A model generated the notes under the pieces. It had not been told where the DNA came from and ran no database searches. It worked only from the letters and a program-made list of their open reading frames with translations. DNA of 64,000 nt from Hankyongella ginsenosidimutans (GTDB lineage: Bacteria > Pseudomonadota > Alphaproteobacteria > Sphingomonadales > Sphingomonadaceae), in NCBI RefSeq assembly GCF_005144965.1, contig NZ_CP039704.1, positions 744,001 through 808,000 of the forward strand, given 5' to 3'. Both the position numbers and the translations under genes were made by a program. The first letter of the stretch is position 1; each line of letters starts with the position of its first letter. Shown here piece after piece: positions 11,984 through 26,542 of this stretch.

Positions 11984-14745
11984 ATGACCGCTGACTCGCG
12001 CACACTGCTGCCCAACCCCGCGCTCGCCGCCGGCTGGGACGGCCTGTGGGTCGCGCGCGCGGGCGAACCCGCGCAGCCGATCGCACGCGGGGCCGCGCTG
12101 CGGCTGGTCGCCGACACGCCGGTGCTGATGATCAATGCGCCGCTGGCCGCCAGCCGGATCGGCGCGCCGCAGATCTCCGGCTTAGACCTGCTGGAGCTGT
12201 TCGCCTTCGCGCGGCCGGCGCAGTTCGTCGTGCCGAGCGCGCGCGGCCTGGCGCTGGCGCTGCGCCTTGCGCCGCCGCTGACCCTGGAAGACGAACCGGC
12301 CGCCCTGTTCGCGATCGCGCAGGCGCTGCTGGACGAAATCGGCGCGTCCGGCTGGCGCTACGCCGCCGGCGCTTATGGCGCGGCGGTCGCGCTCAACCGC
12401 CTGAAATGGCCGTGGGGACCGCTGGTGACAGCGCGGGTCCCTGCCCTGCAACAGTCGAGAAACCGCTGTTCCAGGCGCTCCCGGAATGGCAGGAACCGGC
12501 GCCGCGGCCGGCACCGCGCACGGTCGAACTTGCCGAGCCGCAGGTGCTGAACGAACTGGCCCGCACTGTCGGCGCGGCAGCGGAGCCACGCGCGAGCCAG
12601 CGCGCCTACGCCCGGGCGGTCGCTGCCGCGTTCCAGCCGCGCGCGGTGGCGGGACAGCCGACCCTCGCGCTCGCCGAGGCGGGAACCGGCACCGGCAAGA
12701 CGCTCGGCTATCTGGCGCCGGCGCGGCTGTGGGCCGAGGCGGCGGGCGGCACGGTGTGGATTTCCACCTACACCAAAGCGCTGCAACGCCAGCTCGCCCA
12801 GGAACTGAAGCGCGTCTACCCCGACCCTGCGGACTATGCGGCGCGCGTTGTCGTGCGCAAGGGTCGGGAGAATTACCTGTGCCTGCTGAACCTCGAGGAT
12901 GCCGTGCAGGGCGCTTCACGGGCCGCGCAGCGGTGCTGGCGCAGCTTGTCGCCCGCTGGGCGCGCTTCACGCGGGACGGCGACATGGTCGGCGGCGACTT
13001 GCCCGGCTGGCTGACGGGACTGTTCGGCATGGGACGGATGGCCGCACTCTCCGACCGACGCGGCGAATGCGTCTATGCCGGCTGCCCGCATTATCGCCGC
13101 TGCTTCATCGAGGCCGCGATCGCCCGCTCGGCGGCGGCCGACATCGTGGTCGCCAACCACGCGCTGGTGATGATGAACGCCGCGCGCGGCCGTGCCGAGG
13201 GCCTCGGGCTGACCCGGCTCGTGTTCGACGAGGGCCACCATCTGTTCGAGGCCGCCGACTCGACCTTCGCCGTTCGCCTGTCCGGTGGTGAGGCGCTGGA
13301 ACTGCGGCGCTGGCTGCTGGGGCCGGAGGGCGGACGCACGCGCGGTCGCCGGCGCGGGCTGGAAACGCGCCTATCCGAACTTGGCATGGAGGACCCGGCG
13401 GCAGCGGAGGCCCTCGGTGCGACCCTGAAGGCGGCACAGGCGCTGCCCGGCGACCAGTGGCTGGCGCGTCTGGCCGAGGGCGCACCCTACGGCCCGCTGG
13501 AAGCGCTGCTCGGCGCTGTCCGCGAGACCGTGCTCGCCCGCGCGGAGGAGGCCGACAGCGGCTACGGGCTGGAAGCGGACCTTGCCGCCCCGCCGCCCCG
13601 CCTGATCGATGCAGCGCAGGCGGCGGCACAGGCAATCGAGGCGCTGATCAAACCCATGCGGGTGCTGGCCGGCCGGATCGAGGCGCTGCTGGAGGAGCAG
13701 CCGGAGTGGCTGGAGGCGGCGCTGCGCTCCCGGTTGGAGGGCGCGCGCCTGGGGCTCGACTACCGGCAGCAGATGCTTGCGGCCTGGCTGGCGCTGCTGG
13801 CGCGGATCGGCGGCGCGCCGGACCCGGACTTCGTCGACTGGCTGGCGCTCGAGCGTGTCGACTCGCGCGAGCTGGACGTAGCGCTGTGCCGGCACTGGCT
13901 CGACCCGACCCGGCCGCTCGCCACCACGGTGTACCAGCCGGCGCATGGCGTTGCGATCACCTCTGCCACCCTGCGCGACCCGCCGGCGATCCGGCAGCCG
14001 GACCAGGGCTGGGACCAGGCGCAGGCGCGGGTCGGCGCCCGCCATGTCGCCGCGCGCGTGCAGACTTCAGCCGCCGCCTCACCGTTCGATTACGCGTCCG
14101 CCGCGCGGGTACTGGTGGTGACCGACGTCAAGCGCGGCGACGTCGCCCAGCTTGCCGGCGCCTATCGCAGCCTGATCGAGGCAGCCGGCGGCGGCGCGCT
14201 TGGGCTGTTCACGGCGATCGCCCGGCTGAAGGCGGTGCATGCCCGGATCGCCGAGCCTCTGACCGCGAACGGCCTGCCGGTGCTCGCCCAGCACATCGAT
14301 CCTCTCGACGCCGGCACGCTGGTCGATCTGTTCCGCGCCGACCGGCATGCCTCGCTGCTCGGGACCGATGCGCTGCGCGACGGCGTCGACGTGCCGGGCG
14401 AGGCGCTGCGGCTGGCGATTCTGAGGGCATCCCTGGTCCCGCCCGACCCTGCTGCACGCCGCACGCCGGGCTGCGGCCGGCGATGCCGCCTATGAAGACC
14501 GGGCGACCCGGGCGCGGCTGGCGCAGGCGTTCGGGCGGCTGATCCGCCGCGCCGGCGACCGCGGCGTGTTCGTGCTGATCGGCGCTGCCACGCCCAGCCG
14601 GCTGCTGGACGCGTTTCCCGTGCCCGCCGAGCGCGTGGCCCTCGCCGATGCCTGCCGGATCGTGACGCGCTTTCTCAGCCATGACTTGCAGGCGACGCCA
14701 AGCTTGCCTAGACCGGGGCATTCCCCACGCGCCGAGGACGCATGA
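11984..14745 (+). CDS. DinG/Rad3-like superfamily 2 ATP-dependent helicase (three frameshifts)
   Basis: About 920 aa after correction. Walker A is [15 protein letters not shown] (near residue 230). A cysteine-rich segment [12 protein letters not shown] (near 362) with an upstream Cys fits the 4Fe-4S domain of XPD/DinG helicases. The Walker B is VFDEGHHLF (near 415), and TSATLRD and [12 protein letters not shown] are the C-terminal helicase motifs. Such enzymes unwind 5'-3' and resolve R-loops or flaps. Breaks fall near 12448, 12905 and 14440. A long N-terminal extension of about 180 aa is unassigned. The next gene starts inside its stop (ATGA). Confidence 0.88.
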
Positions 14746-15173
14746 CCGGACAGCCGATTACCCTGCAGACCGCGCTGATCTACCTGATGATCGTTGTTGC
14801 CGGTGCCGACCAGGAACTGCAGCAGACCGAGATGACCCGCATCGGCCAGATCGTCCGGCGTTATCCGGTATTCGAGGAATTCAACGTCGAGACCATGATC
14901 CCGGCGATGCGCGACTGCGCCGACATCCTGTCCCGCGATGACGGCCTCGCGACCGTGTTCGGGCTGATCCGCAGCGCCATCGATGCAGACTGGGCGGAAA
15001 CCGCCTATTGCGTCGCCTGCGACGTGGCCGCCGCGGACGGCAGCCTGCGCACCCTGGAACGGCGCATCCTCGATACCGTGCGCTCGACGCTTGGCGTCGA
15101 ACGGCTGGCGGCGGCAGCGATCGAACGCGCAACCGCCGCGCGCTGGCGTCGGCCGACAGCGGACAGCCGGTAA
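14742..15173 (+). CDS. TerB-like (tellurite resistance TerB family) protein
   Basis: Intact 143-aa all-helical protein. Acidic helices ALIYLMIVVAGADQELQQTE and AYCVACDVAAADGSLRTLE, spaced about 75 residues apart, are the duplicated TerB motif that binds divalent metal through Asp/Glu. Function outside ter operons is unclear; single genes like this are common in alphaproteobacteria. Translationally coupled to the helicase gene upstream by ATGA. Confidence 0.82.
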   Translation: MTGQPITLQTALIYLMIVVAGADQELQQTEMTRIGQIVRRYPVFEEFNVETMIPAMRDCADILSRDDGLATVFGLIRSAIDADWAETAYCVACDVAAADGSLRTLERRILDTVRSTLGVERLAAAAIERATAARWRRPTADSR

Positions 15174-15178
15174 GACCC

Positions 15179-15723
15179 ATGCGCACCCTGTTCCTTCTCC
15201 GCCACGCGAAGTCGGACTGGGACGATCCCAACCTGCCGGATTTCGACCGCCCGCTGGCGCTGCGCGGCCGCGACGCCGCCATCCGCATGGGCGTCTACTG
15301 GCGGCAGGCGGGGCTGCATGTCGACCTGGTGCTGTCCTCGCCGTCCATGCGCACCCGCCAGACCCTGGCGCTCATGGAGGGGCAAACGGCGGACCGCTGA
15401 GCGCTGGCCAGCCGGCTGCCTTCGACGACCAGCTTTACCTCGCCAGCCCCTCGACCCTCGCGCTGATCCTCGAGGAGCTGCCGGACGACGCCGTTCATGT
15501 GCTGCTGATCGGGCACAACCCCGGCTTCGAGGAAACCGCGCTGGCGCTGAGCGGCAGCGCCGAGACCGGACTGATGGCCAAACTGCACGACAAGTTCCCG
15601 ACCGGGGCACTCGCGCGCATCGACCTGCCGATCGCGCGCTGGCGCGACCTGAGCCTGAAGGCCGGGCATCTGGCGCTGTTCCTGCGCCCCGTCGACCTCG
15701 ACGTTACCCTGCCGGCGGATTGA
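15179..15723 (+). CDS. SixA-like histidine phosphatase (frameshifted)
   Basis: The RHG catalytic motif LFLLRHAKSDW and, after a break near 15390, LLIGHNPGFEE with the second catalytic His match the SixA/phosphohistidine phosphatase branch of the histidine phosphatase superfamily. VDLVLSSPSMRTRQTL is the usual middle segment. Corrected length is about 181 aa. The starting ATG is 5 nt after the TerB-like stop, so the two probably share a transcript with the helicase. Confidence 0.88.
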
Positions 15724-15795
15724 CGCCATAGCGAACGGACCCACTGTCTCCATGGTCGAGGGCTTGGCCTGATCGTCATCGCGGGGCGGCAGGCT

Positions 15796-16475
15796 TCAGC
15801 CTGGCGGCTGGTGCAGCCACCAGCTGCGCTCGTTGATGGAGTAGATCGGTCGGTAATGGACGATCAGCCGATCCGGCAGCACTTCCCCGATCTGGTTGTC
15901 GAGGATCAGGTAGCCATCCCCGCTCGCAACCGCCAGGATCGCGTGCGGCACACCCAGATTCTCGTCCTGCAGCACGACGATGCGCATCTCGTCGATGGAA
16001 TAGCCGAGCGCCTTCAGGGCCATGTACTTGGCGATCGCATAGTCCTCGCAGTCGCCGTTGCGGGCGAGAAACTGCCGCACCGCCGCCCAATAGTCCGGCA
16101 CGCCCCAGTTCTCCGGGTCCGTGATGTAGCGATGACCGTTCAGGGCCTTGTTGATCAGGCGTAGTTGCTCGAGCCGGGGCAGCTTGCGCGCCTCGGCCAG
16201 CAGGTCCGGGAAGCTTGGGCGCGCGCAGATCGGCGAGCCGGGCCGGCACGCGCCGCTGGTCGCCAGCACAGCATCCGCGCCCGGCGGCGGCGCGACCGGC
16301 TCCGGCGCTGTCGGCGGCGGACCGCGGCGCTCACGCGCCAGCATGTCCAGCCATTTCGGGAACTGCTCGACGGACGCGAACTGCCGCTCCGGCGCGCCGA
16401 ACAAGGTGCGCGCGGACGCAGGCACCGCTGCGGCGAAACACGCGACGCACAGCAAAGGAAGATGCGCGCGACCAT
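15796..16475 (-). CDS. LapG-like periplasmic transglutaminase-type cysteine protease (BTLCP)
   Basis: About 225 aa. The signal peptide starts MVARIF at 16475 and needs one T restored near 16455 to reach LLCVACFAAAVPASAR; without that repair only a TTG start at 16455 is available. The catalytic triad is visible: Cys in NGDCEDYA, His in GVPHAILAV, Asp in LILDNQ, typical of bacterial transglutaminase-like cysteine proteinases (LapG). Known LapG cuts the N-terminus of a surface adhesin unless held by an inner-membrane c-di-GMP receptor. The adjacent divergent gene encodes a plausible receptor, and an adhesin-like gene lies at 53325. Confidence 0.85.
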
Positions 16476-16538
16476 GCTTGGCTTTTGCCCGCAGGTCTTT
16501 AAGAAATAGCTAAAGTTTCGCAGGAGCACGCCCGCGCC

Positions 16539-18449
16539 ATGACGCAACCGACACCGCGTCGCCAGACCGTCCTCGCCCTTGTCGGCCTCGGCCTCGCCTA
16601 TGCGCTGGCGCTGGCTTTCGGCCTGCGCAGCGCCGAACTCGAGCGCAGCCGCGACATCGCCGCACTCGGGCAGCAACATGCGCTGGTGGCCGCCAGCCGG
16701 GCGGAAGCCGTGAGCGGCTGGGTCCAGGAGACCCGGGATCAACTGGCAGCACTCGCCGACAACCCGGCTGTACGGCTTTACACGCTCGGCGCCAGCAGCA
16801 GCGGCGACCCGCGCGCGGCCGCCGGTCAGGCGCAGTATCTGGAGAGCCTGCTGAACGCGACCGCCGCCCGCGCCGGCTTCGGCGTCGCCCGCATCGCCGT
16901 GCGCGCCGACGTGCCGGTGCCGGAGGCGCCGGGCATCGCCGTACTCGACCCCGCTGGCCGGCTGATCGCGCGCGCCGGCGGGCCGCTGCCGCGATTGGCG
17001 CAGGGCTTCGATGCGCACAAGCCGAGGCTCTCCGTGGCCATGCTCGGCGGACAGGCGGCCCTGAGCGCCACCCAACCGATCCTGCGGCTGCAGGACGATA
17101 CCGGCGCTCCGGTCGGTCTGCTCTATGCCGTACGCCTGCTGGACGAGGGGCTGGCGCGGCGGCTGCGTCAGCCCGGCGACCCCTATGCGAGCGGACGGAC
17201 GATCCTGGTCGACGCCAGGGGCACGCCGCTGCTGGCGCCGGGAACCGAGGATCCGGCGCAGGCGCTGCCGGAGGCGATCCGCAAGGCGCTGCCCCGCGAC
17301 GGCAAACCCTGGATCAGCGCCGACAGCACCGCCGCCTATCAACCGCTCGCTATCGGCGGACTTGGCGTCGTGCGCGTGGTCGATGCCGATGAAGCCTTGC
17401 AGGAAGCCAATGAACGCCGGCGGCTGAAAAGCCTGGGCTGGATTTCCGGCATAAGCTGGCTGGCGGCGGTGCTGCTGCTGCTGTGGCGGCACGGCGCGGC
17501 ACAGCGGGCGACAAGCGCTGCACGCGACGCCGAAGCCGCAACCGCGCGCGAAGGGCGCGCCCGCCTGTTCCTGCAGGAGATCGCAGACAGGCAGCAGGCG
17601 CTCATCCTGGTCGGGGATGCGGACGACCAGCTGGAATTCTCCAACGCGCGCGCCCGCGTTGCCCTGCATCTGGGCCAGGACGCGCGCGGCGTGCCGCTTG
17701 CCAGCCTGTTCGGCGCGGAAGCCGAGACGGTTGCCGGGCTGCTGGCGGCACTGCGCGCGACGGCGAGCGCTGCCGGACCGGCGCGGCTCAGCCTCGGCGG
17801 GCGGTCGGTCAGCCTCAGCGCGCTGCCGATGGCCGACGGGCAGAGCCTGCTGGTCGGCGACGACGTGACCGACGTGCTGGCGGCCGAAGCGCGCCGCGCC
17901 ACCGCCATGACGGCACTGGTGACCTTGCTGACCGGGCTGATCGACGCGCGCGACCCCGCCTCGACCGCGCACTCGCTGAAAGTCTCGCGCCTGGCGGTGC
18001 TGGTCGGCACGGCGCTGGGGCTGAGCGAGGCGGAGCGCGCGACCTTGCAACTGGCCGGGCAACTGATGAACCTCGGCAAGATGCTGGTGCCAGCCGAAAT
18101 CCTCACCAAGGCTGGGCCGCTCGATGCGCAGGAGCAGAGCATCGTCCAGAGCGCGGTCGCGCGGGCGGCGGACATGCTGGCACCGGTGCCGTTCGACCTG
18201 CCGGTGGTCGAGGTGATCCGCGGCCTGAACTCCGTCTCGCCGCCGCTGCCGGCGCGCATCCTGCGGCTTGTGAACGCCTATGTCAGCATGGTCAGCCCGC
18301 GCGCCTTCCGTGCCGCGCTGCCGCACGATGCCGCGCTCGATATCCTGCGCGCCAAGGCGACCCCGGCCGATGCGCCGGCAATCGCCGCCATCGCTCAGAG
18401 CATGGAGACGGATGCCGGACGCAGCGCGCTCGAGGCGTCATCGCGCTGA
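16539..18449 (+). CDS. Membrane sensor with degenerate HD-GYP domain
   Basis: Intact, 636 aa. TM1 is about residues 10-30, a periplasmic region of about 270 residues resembles a double-Cache sensor, TM2 (WLAAVLLLLW) is near 305-320, then a PAS-like region and an HD-type domain from about 445. The domain keeps AHSLKVSRLA but has LMNLGKM where active enzymes have LHDIGK. The HHE...GYP loop is missing, leading straight to PLPARILRLVNAY. It is therefore unlikely to hydrolyse c-di-GMP and may bind ligand only. Start codons of this gene and the LapG-like gene are 63 nt apart. Confidence 0.85.
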   Translation: MTQPTPRRQTVLALVGLGLAYALALAFGLRSAELERSRDIAALGQQHALVAASRAEAVSGWVQETRDQLAALADNPAVRLYTLGASSSGDPRAAAGQAQYLESLLNATAARAGFGVARIAVRADVPVPEAPGIAVLDPAGRLIARAGGPLPRLAQGFDAHKPRLSVAMLGGQAALSATQPILRLQDDTGAPVGLLYAVRLLDEGLARRLRQPGDPYASGRTILVDARGTPLLAPGTEDPAQALPEAIRKALPRDGKPWISADSTAAYQPLAIGGLGVVRVVDADEALQEANERRRLKSLGWISGISWLAAVLLLLWRHGAAQRATSAARDAEAATAREGRARLFLQEIADRQQALILVGDADDQLEFSNARARVALHLGQDARGVPLASLFGAEAETVAGLLAALRATASAAGPARLSLGGRSVSLSALPMADGQSLLVGDDVTDVLAAEARRATAMTALVTLLTGLIDARDPASTAHSLKVSRLAVLVGTALGLSEAERATLQLAGQLMNLGKMLVPAEILTKAGPLDAQEQSIVQSAVARAADMLAPVPFDLPVVEVIRGLNSVSPPLPARILRLVNAYVSMVSPRAFRAALPHDAALDILRAKATPADAPAIAAIAQSMETDAGRSALEASSR

Positions 18450-23166: not shown

Positions 23167-23651
23167 CTAAACGGCAATTAAACCATGCGTACGCAGCGCA
23201 TCCAATATCTGTGCAATACTGGTCCGGGCTTGCGCATCTATTGTTGCGCCTCCGGAAGGATTGCCGATTGCCGGCAGTTGTGCGCCGACCACCTTTACGC
23301 CGTTCACAGCAAATGCCGCGGCGGACCAGACGCCGGGTTTCCACGACGCACCATCGAAATATCCGAAACTGTCGGCCGCCTTGTTCCAGACGATCATGCC
23401 CGGCGTTGGCGCCAGAAACACCCAGCCGCCTTCGCCCATGCAGGCGACATGATGGTCATAGCCGGTCCAGGCATCCGTCGCGCTGGCGGCGACCAGATAG
23501 CATTGGCCGACTGTCGGGCTGGCTGGCGGGGCAGCACTTGACGGGCCCTCCACCGCGATGTGCAAAGATAGCCGATCCGCTCGACGGCTTGGTTATGGGT
23601 GATTTCCTTTTGGGCCTGTCCGGCCTCCAGCAGCGGGAGATCGTGGCGCAT
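23167..23651 (-). CDS. DUF2793 phage/GTA tail-associated protein (frameshifted)
   Basis: Starts MRHDLPLLEAGQAQKE after an AAGGAGG ribosome site; HNQAVERID leads to a break near 23565, then VGQCYLVAASATDAWTG, GEGGWVFLAPTPGM and YFDGASWKPG, the repeated Trp/Gly pattern of DUF2793. Such proteins follow the tail-tip gene in alphaproteobacterial GTA and prophage clusters and may serve as tip or fiber subunits; the exact role is unknown. About 161 aa. It is the last gene of the particle cluster. Confidence 0.8.
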
Positions 23652-23661
23652 TGGTCCTCCT

Positions 23662-25936
23662 TCAGGGTCGGGTGAAGTTTTGGCGTGCGGGGTTCCCGGG
23701 CCAACGGTTGCGCTCAACTGCGCAATAGAAATGGCCAGGGTCGCAACCGGTGCGCCGAAATCCGCCGTCTGTTGCGCCATGCTGTACAGCGCCTCCGGCA
23801 CGGATGTTTGCAGTACCCGCCGCACGGCCCCGATACTGTCCAAAATCTCGATCCGGTATTGCTCGGACTCTTCGGCCAGCGGCGCGTCCACGCCGTCGAC
23901 CCAGTCGAAGCCGGCTCGGCTGCGCCGAACCCAGCGCAGTGCAATGTCGCCGCCCGGTTGCCAGGATGCCGTCAGATGCACAGGGCTCAGAGGCCGCAGC
24001 GCATTGGCGCGCTGGGTGAACGCGATCGCCGGCACGTCGCCGAGCGCCTGGTAGGGGCTGAGCGCCTTGATCAGCAGGCTCTGCCCAACCCCAAGCCCGG
24101 CAATGTCGACCGGTGCCAGCACCGCCCCGCTCAGCAGGACGAAGCGCTCGTTGGGGCCATGCCCCGTCGTCGCCCACTCGGTGCCGCGCCGCCCGCGCAG
24201 CAGGCCGCGCAGCCGATACACGCCGGGCACCACCAGACTGGCCGTCCGGAACTGCACAAGCTCGTCACCGATCAGGCACAGATTGGCACCCGCAAGAACG
24301 GATGTGGCGCTACGATCCTCCAGCAACATTGATGGGTTGAGCAAAGCAATGTCGCAGGACCCGCGCTCATCCCAGACCTGGGATGGACCGGGCGGCAGCG
24401 TGTTGGAGGTCGTCCCAAGCACCGTCGCACCGACGATCTCGGCGGCGAACGCATAGTCCGCGCCGCCATCGCGGCTGACGTAAAGGGAACTGCGCCGCCA
24501 GCCCGGCCGGTCGCCGCCAGCCGCAAACGTCACCGGCGCGCTGGTTGGCGCGGTTGCGCCAAGCGGCGGCAGGTCGAGCGCATGCGCGGTGGTGCCGCCA
24601 TGGTCGGCGCTGGCCTGCCGCGGGCTGTCCCCGGCATCGCCGCGCGCATTGCTCAGCCGGTCGACGGCGTCGATTGGCGTCAGTTCCAGTTCCAGGCTGC
24701 CGGCATCGATCGTCAAGGTCTCGATGCGCCAGCGCGCGCCCGGCGTCTCGGCGAAGGCGATCGTGTCGCCGGGCTCCAGAGCGAGCGCGCTCCAGGGCAG
24801 GTGCACGGTCAGCATGCGCCGGGCGCGCCAGCGCCGGGCCAGCAGCCGCTCGGCGGTCGCCTTGGCCCCGTCTGCACCCAGAACCAGCGGCAGTTCATAG
24901 CGCTCGGCTGTCGCGGCACCCCCATCGCGCGTCGGGCGCGCTGCTGGCCGGGCTGATAGTCGCGCGCCGTGTCCCAATAGAGCAACGCCACTTCGCGCGG
25001 CAGGCTGGCGTCGGCGGTCCGCTCCGTCGCCCGACGCGCCGGCGGCGCTTCGCGCTGGTCGGGCGCATCGGTGCCCAGCAAATCGGCATCGAGGGTTACG
25101 GCCGCATCGTCGATCCGGTCGGAATACACAAGGCCGCCAAGCGCTGTCGCATAGCCGCGCACTCCTGTCGCTGCGCGCAGGATCTCCAGCATGTCGAGGC
25201 CGTTTGCCACCCCGCGCGAGGCCACCAGACCCGGCACTGTGGCGTCGACGTCGATCCGTTCCGCGCCCACGGCCGATCGCGCGTTGACATCCGCCAGCAC
25301 GCGACGGACCGGGATCTCGCTCTCCGTATCCGCGATCACTTCGAAGGTCAGGTTGGGTGCCCGGTTGGCGAACTCGGCCAGTTGCAGGTCTTCGATCACG
25401 GCATAGGCCATCCCGCGCCAGGCCGGCGTTGCATCAATCCCGAGTGCCGCCTCCAGCAGCGGGTCGGGCATCTGGCGGCCATCGCCGGCATAGACCCGCA
25501 GGCTGCCGCCGACGGACAGCGGCCCCTGCCCTTCGCGGATCAGCTTCCCGTCCGCCCAGATCCGCTCGACCCGCAGGATCGACCGGGCGCTCAGGCCCAC
25601 CGCCATCGAGACGGAATAGCTGTACGAGGTGGTAGAGACCTTCTGCCCGCCCTTGCCGCCGACCCGTGTCGTCTCGGTGCTTCGCGTCTCCTGGAGGCCG
25701 CTGGACCACAGCACGTTGCCGGCGACCCGCGCGCGTCCGTAAACCAGCGGGATCGGCGCGCCGTAGGTCGATGCCTGGACCGCGAGGTCTGAGAGGCGCG
25801 GCCCTTCCCGCCGCACCGGCGGCGTCAGCGCTCCCAGAACCTGCCGGTCGACGAACGAGCCGGCAACCGAGCCGATGAGCGCGCCGACAGGTCCGGCGAC
25901 GACAAATCCGACCGTGCTGAGGATAAGGGTTGCCAA
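23662..25936 (-). CDS. GTA gp15-like tail tip/baseplate protein (frameshifted)
   Basis: About 758 aa. The N-terminus has a glycine-rich hydrophobic stretch (AGPVGALIGSVAGSFVDRQ), then GAPIPLVYGRARVAGNVLW, YSYSVSMAVGL, RIWADGKLI, MAYAVIEDLQLAEFANR and FEVIADTE as in phage tail tip proteins of the gp15 or J type. The C-terminal half has ERYELPLVLGADGA and YRLRGLLRGRRGTEW. The RcGTA gp15 TIM-barrel insertion is not seen. Breaks near 24945 and 23695; the corrected end reads ARQNFTRP with stop at 23662, 8 nt before the next start. It forms the cell-contact end of the tail. Confidence 0.82.
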
Positions 25937-25938
25937 GG

Positions 25939-26388
25939 TCAGGCTCCTGGAGCGATTCCGGGGCAGGTCGAGATCTGCTCCGGGAAGCGGTAAGCAGCGA
26001 TCAGGGCGTCGGCCCAGGCTGGCGGCAGCCGGTGCTCGACCACCCGCCCCAGCCGCGCATGGGCGTGGATCGCGCCGCCCGGCGTGCGGATCGCCAGGTG
26101 CCGCCGCTCGGCGTCGACCGCCAGCAGCAGCACGTCGCCCGGCAGCGCCGCGGCGGCGGGTAGCACGGCCAGTCCGTGGGCGATCAATCCCGCCTCCAGC
26201 GCCCGCTGGTCGCCGTTCAGCGAATAGGCGGGGACGCAGGCCCGCACGCCAAGGGCTGCGGCGACATGGATCACCAGCCCCAGGCAGTCGAGGCCGGTTT
26301 CAGGATCGCGGCCATGGGGGCGGAACGGCACGCCGACCAGAGCGCGCGCCGCGCTGACGGCGGGATGGCTCATACCGGGTCGCATTGA
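25939..26388 (-). CDS. GTA gp14-like NlpC/P60 peptidase
   Basis: Intact, about 149 aa from ATG 26388 (or ATG 26373). The NlpC/P60 nucleophile is in GLDCLGLVIHV, and the catalytic His lies in HLAIRTPGG or AIHAHARLG. In RcGTA the gp14 peptidase sits in the baseplate and opens peptidoglycan during DNA entry. The stop precedes the gp15-like start by 2 nt. Upstream, 342 bp contain only repeats. Confidence 0.85.
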   Translation of the reverse strand, partial: SMRPGMSHPAVSAARALVGVPFRPHGRDPETGLDCLGLVIHVAAALGVRACVPAYSLNGDQRALEAGLIAHGLAVLPAAAALPGDVLLLAVDAERRHLAIRTPGGAIHAHARLGRVVEHRLPPAWADALIAAYRFPEQISTCPGIAPGA

Positions 26389-26433
26389 TTTTTCTCCGGC
26401 GCGCCATTCCGGCGAATCCAAGAACATTTTTGC

Positions 26434-26542
26434 TAGTGGGTCGGTTTGAAAAACCGCTCGTGGTAAGCCTGGACGAACCACGAGCGGCTCAACCCTTCGT
26501 CAAGCTCAGGGTGAGCGGCAAAGTTTCAAAATGACCCGCTAC
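26434..26542. repeat. Palindromic repeat, inverted copy of the unit near ald
   Basis: Outer arms TAGTGGGTCGGTTTGAAA and TTTCAAAATGACCCGCTA enclose CCGCTCGTGG...CCACGAGCGG and CTCAACCCTTCGTCAAGCTC. The inner 66 bp are the inverted match of 21624-21687. It shares the 342-bp gap between gp13- and gp14-like genes with the next element; no coding sequence is seen there. Confidence 0.7.

Follow-up and report, generated by a model that had tools for sequence, protein, structure and literature searches.

Results

The window analysed here, a stretch of 64,000 nucleotides from the genome of Hankyongella ginsenosidimutans, carries two divergent genes: a minus-strand gene (15796-16455) encoding a LapG-type periplasmic cysteine protease of 219 amino acids (Peptidase_C93/BTLCP), identified by profile, PDB and fold matches, and a plus-strand gene (16539-18449) encoding a predicted DvhD-type receptor of 636 amino acids. 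Between them lies a short intergenic region (16456-16538; no strand assigned), as read from the sequence.

The minus-strand product is a Peptidase_C93 (BTLCP) protease of the LapG type with an intact Cys-His-Asp triad (C136, H171 and D186), the calcium residues D135 and E137, and a signal-peptide-like N terminus, LLCVACFAAAVPASA. It scored 62.3 bits against the Pfam model Peptidase_C93 (cut-off, 27); LapG proteins were its sole good PDB matches in a sequence search (4u65, Pseudomonas fluorescens LapG, E 3.9e-17; 4fgo, Legionella pneumophila LapG, E 3.1e-16), and its AF2 model retrieved the same structures by fold. The initial annotation had described a protease/receptor pair at this position, and both the pair and, by the Pfam and PDB matches, the LapG-like assignment were upheld. 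The triad and the calcium residues are invariant in 20/20 relatives, with which the protease shares 36-59% identity. Since the score against the LapG equivalog model NF045674 was 74.8 bits and its cut-off is 320, the protein is best called LapG-type, not a true LapG.

No ATG is present in the reading frame of the protease: its first in-frame start is the TTG at 16455, and an ATG at 16475 on the minus strand is out of frame, which looks like the result of a one-base indel at the start of the gene. Several genes are split between frames within positions 12046 to 16475 (a DinG-like helicase, a SixA-like phosphatase at about 15400 and the protease start at about 16460), and genome completeness is 86.7%; together, these features point to indel errors in the assembly. 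Elsewhere in the window, positions 23394 to 26481 hold genes of phage-tail type, with a match to PF13550 at 24809-25936; they may belong to a gene transfer agent or a prophage.

Architecture of the receptor

According to profiles, the AF2 model and Foldseek, the receptor is ordered TM1-dCache-TM2-signal helix-PAS-stalk-degenerate HD-GYP. The model, built from 23 relatives (mean pLDDT, 86.4), comprises a TM helix, a dCache domain, a second TM helix, a PAS domain, a stalk and an HD domain, and so bears out the two TM helices and large periplasmic domain first read from the sequence. The periplasmic part is a dCache domain (residues ~30-287; 16626-17399, plus strand), delimited by the model, Foldseek and conservation, with invariant R54 and W61 on its first helix. 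Pfam matches to dCache_1 and CHASE4 were weak (PF02743, E 2.4e-4, below its cut-off), and HD_5 (PF13487) scored 68.8 bits. On the cytoplasmic side, phmmer, AF2 and Foldseek place a PAS domain (residues ~352-442; 17592-17864, from the model and a Foldseek match to 9rc0), followed by the stalk helix and degenerate HD-GYP domain (residues 444-636; 17868-18446, from PF13487 and a phmmer match to 9rbz). The initial annotation was thus right about the domains that it gave but had overlooked the PAS domain.

In alignments, the HD, HHE and GYP phosphodiesterase motifs are all absent. The catalytic HD is replaced by MN (residues 510-511; 18066-18071), with the motif lysine K514 retained, and a loop of ~13 residues, HHE-WDGSG-P or GYP in other sequences, is missing at 18219-18251. 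An identity as an active phosphodiesterase was rejected on these grounds. The description of an HD-type domain with MN for HD and no loop therefore holds for this protein, but loop loss is a trait of its clade only, not of the receptor family as a whole. Residues 579-591, NAYVSMVSPRAFR (18273-18311), are the counterpart of DvhD NAFCAMVRPRSYR, which carries the c-di-GMP contacts M646, R650, Y652 and R653, as judged by phmmer, alignment and PMC13090378.

Relationship to DvhD and other known systems

The best PDB matches of the receptor were to DvhD, both by sequence (phmmer: 9rbz, 7.7e-24; 9rc0, 1.2e-23; the next being an active HD-GYP at 1.8e-10) and by fold (Foldseek: 9rc0, 1.8e-11, and also 9rbz), and its dCache domain matched the DvhD periplasmic domain 9rc2 with a TM-score of 0.66 by target (Foldseek). 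A maximum-likelihood tree of HD-GYP domains separated DvhD and the receptors from active HD-GYPs with support of 99/99; the same split had support of 100/99 when the catalytic and loop columns and a long-branch row (L203) were left out. The active domains came from the same order and from Vibrio cholerae (5Z7C), and the tree is unrooted, with thin sampling of other phyla, so a single origin is to be understood relative to the active enzymes included. Within that frame, phylogeny indicates that the receptor is of the DvhD type, sharing descent with DvhD apart from the active HD-GYPs.

DvhD and DvhG of Desulfovibrio vulgaris (DVU1020 and DVU1019; PDB 9RBZ, 9RC0 and 9RC2) were described recently (Nat Commun 2026, PMC13090378). 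That paper reports that DvhD binds c-di-GMP, which it does not hydrolyse, through an inactive HD-GYP domain; that it acts by splaying of the stalk, with the dCache domain as output; that it controls DvhG when the pair is reconstituted in P. fluorescens lacking lapD and lapG; and that DvhG cleaves adhesins after their retention domain. The two proteins come from sulfate-reducing bacteria, where, in the same account, they are thought to replace LapD, possibly by way of gene transfer.

The pair in the window resembles DvhD/DvhG in the order dCache-TM-PAS-HD-GYP, in the loss of HD (SQ in DvhD, MN here), in the adjacent BTLCP protease with its C-H-D triad and calcium site, in its side of the HD-GYP tree and in the conserved signature NAF/Y..M..PR.[YF]R. 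It differs in being alphaproteobacterial, with divergent genes that do not form one operon with an adhesin and a type I secretion system (T1SS). The receptor, unlike DvhD, lacks the GYP loop and does not retain Y523, K582, Y621, E668 and R569, and the protease, unlike DvhG, begins with a signal-peptide-like segment and lacks a long linker. With LapD/LapG of P. fluorescens and CdgS9/LapG of Legionella, the pair shares a LapG-family protease (34% identical over the core that aligns structurally) and, as with LapD, the protease has a partner with an inactive domain of a c-di-GMP-turnover enzyme, two TM helices and a periplasmic output domain; however, dCache-PAS-HD-GYP and LapD/MoxY-HAMP-GGDEF-EAL have no domain in common. 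Identity of the receptor as LapD itself was rejected for this reason, since dCache and HD-GYP stand in place of the LapD/MoxY domain with GGDEF-EAL. Compared with active HD-GYP phosphodiesterases (PmGH 4MCW/4MDZ, V. cholerae 5Z7C and PA4781 4R8Z), the receptor has the HD_5 fold and several conserved positions but has lost the HD and HHE metal-binding motifs and GYP, and falls on the other side of the tree.

Degeneration of the predicted c-di-GMP site

Residues were counted over 110 sampled loci, representing 100 distinct receptors, and DvhD numbering was verified against the residues named in PMC13090378. HD is missing from all 110 loci: the aspartate has given way without exception to Asn (108 loci) or Ser (2 loci), and Met, Val, Ala, Leu or Ile stands in place of the His. 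The motif lysine is retained in 110/110, and K563, L577, M646, R650 and R653 are retained in 103-110/110. For the DvhD c-di-GMP contacts L577, M646 and R650 and the neighbouring R653, the range is 103-109/110; position 652 is variable. In the window receptor, L577 corresponds to L528, and M646, R650, Y652 and R653 correspond to M584, R588, F590 and R591. Other contacts of the canonical site are altered (Y523 to A, K582 to Q, Y621 deleted and E668 to K), and at the bridging site, P567 is retained as P518, K520 is replaced by R471 and R569 by E520. These changes, including that of R569 to glutamate, may weaken or alter ligand binding.

The betaproteobacterial receptors retain GYP; most alphaproteobacterial ones have WDGSG, with the Tyr mostly absent. 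Kordiimonas gwangyangensis is an example of a relative in which the loop is present. The loop deletion is common to four genera of the window's family, its own and three others, and the clade to which the window receptor belongs is on a long branch (1.19). Judged from the alignments, this clade has lost about half of the c-di-GMP contacts of DvhD, together with the GYP loop.

Conservation of the pairing

Among 150 related genomes, assigned to the same family and order by the grouping of the search tool, all 45 receptors have an adjacent C93 gene, upstream and on the opposite strand. The named loci whose receptors are identical belong to Kordiimonas, Emcibacteraceae and a Sphingomonadales MAG. 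Both genes are present in 45 genomes, 22 have C93 without the receptor, 83 have neither and none has the receptor without C93 (Fisher p 6e-22, ignoring relatedness); adjacency by chance would be expected at ~0.002 per genome. The C93 proteins of the 22 receptor-less genomes (e.g. G014, G035 and G060), many of them in longer open frames of ~310-430 amino acids, represent another BTLCP group. A scan of contigs of GTDB genomes gave 182 relatives, of which 80 were kept, mostly from Rhodospirillales, Sneathiella and Kordiimonas, with some betaproteobacteria. In this wider sample, 86 of the 100 distinct receptors have a LapG-type neighbour, divergent in 82, and of those without one, a few are located at the end of a contig. 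The co-occurrence of BTLCP and degenerate HD-GYP genes, which had been put forward as a synteny check, is therefore borne out in both samples, and the 45/45 adjacency in the order led us to reject chance neighbours.

Orphan receptors with no C93 nearby occur in seven marine Rhodospirillaceae-type MAGs (L100, L102, L108, L110, L114, L117 and L128), mostly between genes named by eye as EamA-like and argD-like; a search with a protease-derived HMM detected no diverged copy in their vicinity. In four loci, mostly betaproteobacterial (L121, L142, L145 and L146), the protease and receptor genes share a strand, and HD is changed to AN with GYP retained in L121, L145, L146 and L141. One cluster (G113:C55:7974-18159; L032, L061 and L203) contains two C93 and two degenerate HD-GYP genes, the second of which groups with DvhD on a long branch; a weak BapA-prefix match lies ~8 kb away. 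A receptor in a record labelled Mesoflavibacter, Bacteroidota (L125; CP051228.1), groups with alphaproteobacterial ones; a wrong label or a mixed bin is the probable cause.

Adhesin genes

An RTX gene directly follows the receptor in seven relatives (L092, L107, L113, L116, L120, L127 and L144) and lies slightly further off in three (L109, L147 and L148). Several of these genes are of great length and show features of the cadherin-like or BapA/LapF type. The L144 adhesin has a type I secretion signal and PAAGPAAG after its N-terminal domain, and the N terminus of the L120 adhesin is BapA-prefix-like and LapA-retention-like (38 bits against a cut-off of 50). In L081, a gene identified by eye as TolC-like runs divergently from the receptor gene.

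The pair in the window is flanked by TerB-like and SixA-like phosphatase genes on one side and by MmcB-like and SelO genes on the other; neither a T1SS nor a large adhesin with a retention module and a [T/A/P]AAG site is beside it. RTX genes and an HlyB/HlyD type I secretion system occur elsewhere in this genome. At G000:C1:2084000-2103500 (L159), HlyB/HlyD genes precede a long, frame-broken RTX gene, and other RTX clusters are scattered. Searches of this genome with NF033682, the FecR-type retention module of a relative and a BapA prefix model gave no match to a retention-module adhesin, and across the order, such searches returned too few matches for co-occurrence statistics; the gammaproteobacterial models are probably too remote. 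Inspection of RTX clusters in this genome and in three family members for [T/A/P]AAG after the N-terminal domain did not point clearly to a substrate. In L208, a family member, an RTX-type gene with a reported open frame of 5557 amino acids encodes an N-terminal domain that looks similar by eye, but the part read has no motif. In the genome of the window, the lack of an identified substrate is due in part to frame shifts that break long genes in the assembly.

LapD and c-di-GMP proteins in the genome

A separate canonical LapD elsewhere in the genome was considered as the regulator of this protease and rejected. The LapD_MoxY_N model (PF16448) had no match in this genome; in a control, it matched in 44/150 Pseudomonadota genomes, weakly in this class. 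The EAL/GGDEF proteins with a readable sensor have CHASE4, PAS or CSS, and some EAL matches are frame-broken and sensorless. The presence of GGDEF and EAL proteins indicates that c-di-GMP signalling exists in this organism, with no recognisable LapD.

Discussion

In this study, we consider it likely that the two genes form an inside-out switch of the DvhD/DvhG kind that works like LapD/LapG. The protease would be exported and would cleave a surface adhesin in its N-terminal retention part, and a receptor dimer would span the inner membrane. Its catalytically dead cytoplasmic HD-GYP domain is predicted, from homology to DvhD, to be the ligand sensor, reading a cyclic dinucleotide that is most likely c-di-GMP, and the ligand state would be relayed through the PAS domain, stalk and TM helices to the periplasmic dCache domain. 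If the direction of control is that of DvhD, the dCache domain would restrain the protease, presumably by contact, when ligand is high; as ligand falls, the protease would be freed, a putative adhesin substrate clipped and the cell would let go. The initial annotation had proposed an alternative LapD-like receptor with an inactive HD-GYP domain, and the proposal is supported as homology plus inference, with DvhD as the closest PDB homologue; it is not new in principle.

It is possible, although unlikely, that the HD-GYP remnant of this clade no longer binds c-di-GMP and serves as a dimerisation scaffold or reads another nucleotide, so that the receptor still governs the protease but the signal comes from the PAS domain or, from the outside in, from a small molecule bound by the dCache domain. 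Small molecules are the usual ligands of dCache domains, the AF2 model includes a PAS domain, and this clade, on its long branch, has lost the GYP loop and about half of the DvhD contacts; however, L528, M584, R588, F590 and R591 remain, the same positions are kept in 103-109/110 relatives except for the variable 652, and the HD-GYP domain is itself still there. We regard as quite unlikely a form of this idea in which the loop-less domain is a relic without cyclic-dinucleotide binding and the adhesin switch is now gated by a periplasmic or PAS-sensed signal, which, if true, would add to LapD and DvhD a third mode of control over a LapG-type protease. A target of the pair other than a retained adhesin is distinctly improbable. 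The model for it is HvyA of Caulobacter crescentus, which is likewise a BTLCP protein of an alphaproteobacterium but is reported to control capsulation, which it restricts (PMC4241560). The genome of the window has no recognised retention-module adhesin, and the receptor-less C93 in 22/150 relatives indicates a family of mixed roles; against this, LapG proteins come nearest among solved structures and have the corresponding triad and calcium residues, several relatives carry RTX adhesin genes next to the pair, and DvhG is reported to cleave adhesins (PMC13090378).

Decay of the pair in this genome, with the missing in-frame ATG and the deleted loop as marks of a pseudogene system, is very improbable. 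The other frame-split genes and the 86.7% completeness would fit such decay, but neither frame is interrupted otherwise, and both can be aligned with relatives over their full length, the protease at 36-59% identity; moreover, the loop deletion is common to three other genera, and assembly-wide frame breaks point to sequencing indels. It is scarcely credible that two unrelated genes lie side by side without functional connection: receptors without an adjacent C93 in some marine Rhodospirillaceae-type MAGs would allow it, but conservation (45/45 in the order and 86/100 in the wider sample) comes close to refuting it.

The principle of an inactive HD-GYP receptor paired with a LapG-type protease has been known for Desulfovibrio since 2024-2026. 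Our literature search found no report of a DvhDG-type pair in alphaproteobacteria, with the proviso that the class-level distribution in PMC13090378 may already list them. Within the literature searched, it is new that the pairing is fixed across an order of alphaproteobacteria, that its receptors group with DvhD, that adhesin genes lie beside the pair in relatives and that one variant lacks the loop.

In conclusion, the receptors form a series, from SQ with GYP (DvhD) through AN with GYP (betaproteobacteria) and MN or VN with WDGSG (most alphaproteobacteria) to MN without the loop (the window's family), that could be used to test the minimum of HD-GYP needed for c-di-GMP sensing. The DvhDG-like pairing is conserved as a module across an order of alphaproteobacteria and occurs in some betaproteobacteria as well; a single origin and broad use are suggested by this conservation and by the HD-GYP tree, in which DvhD falls on the side of these receptors.
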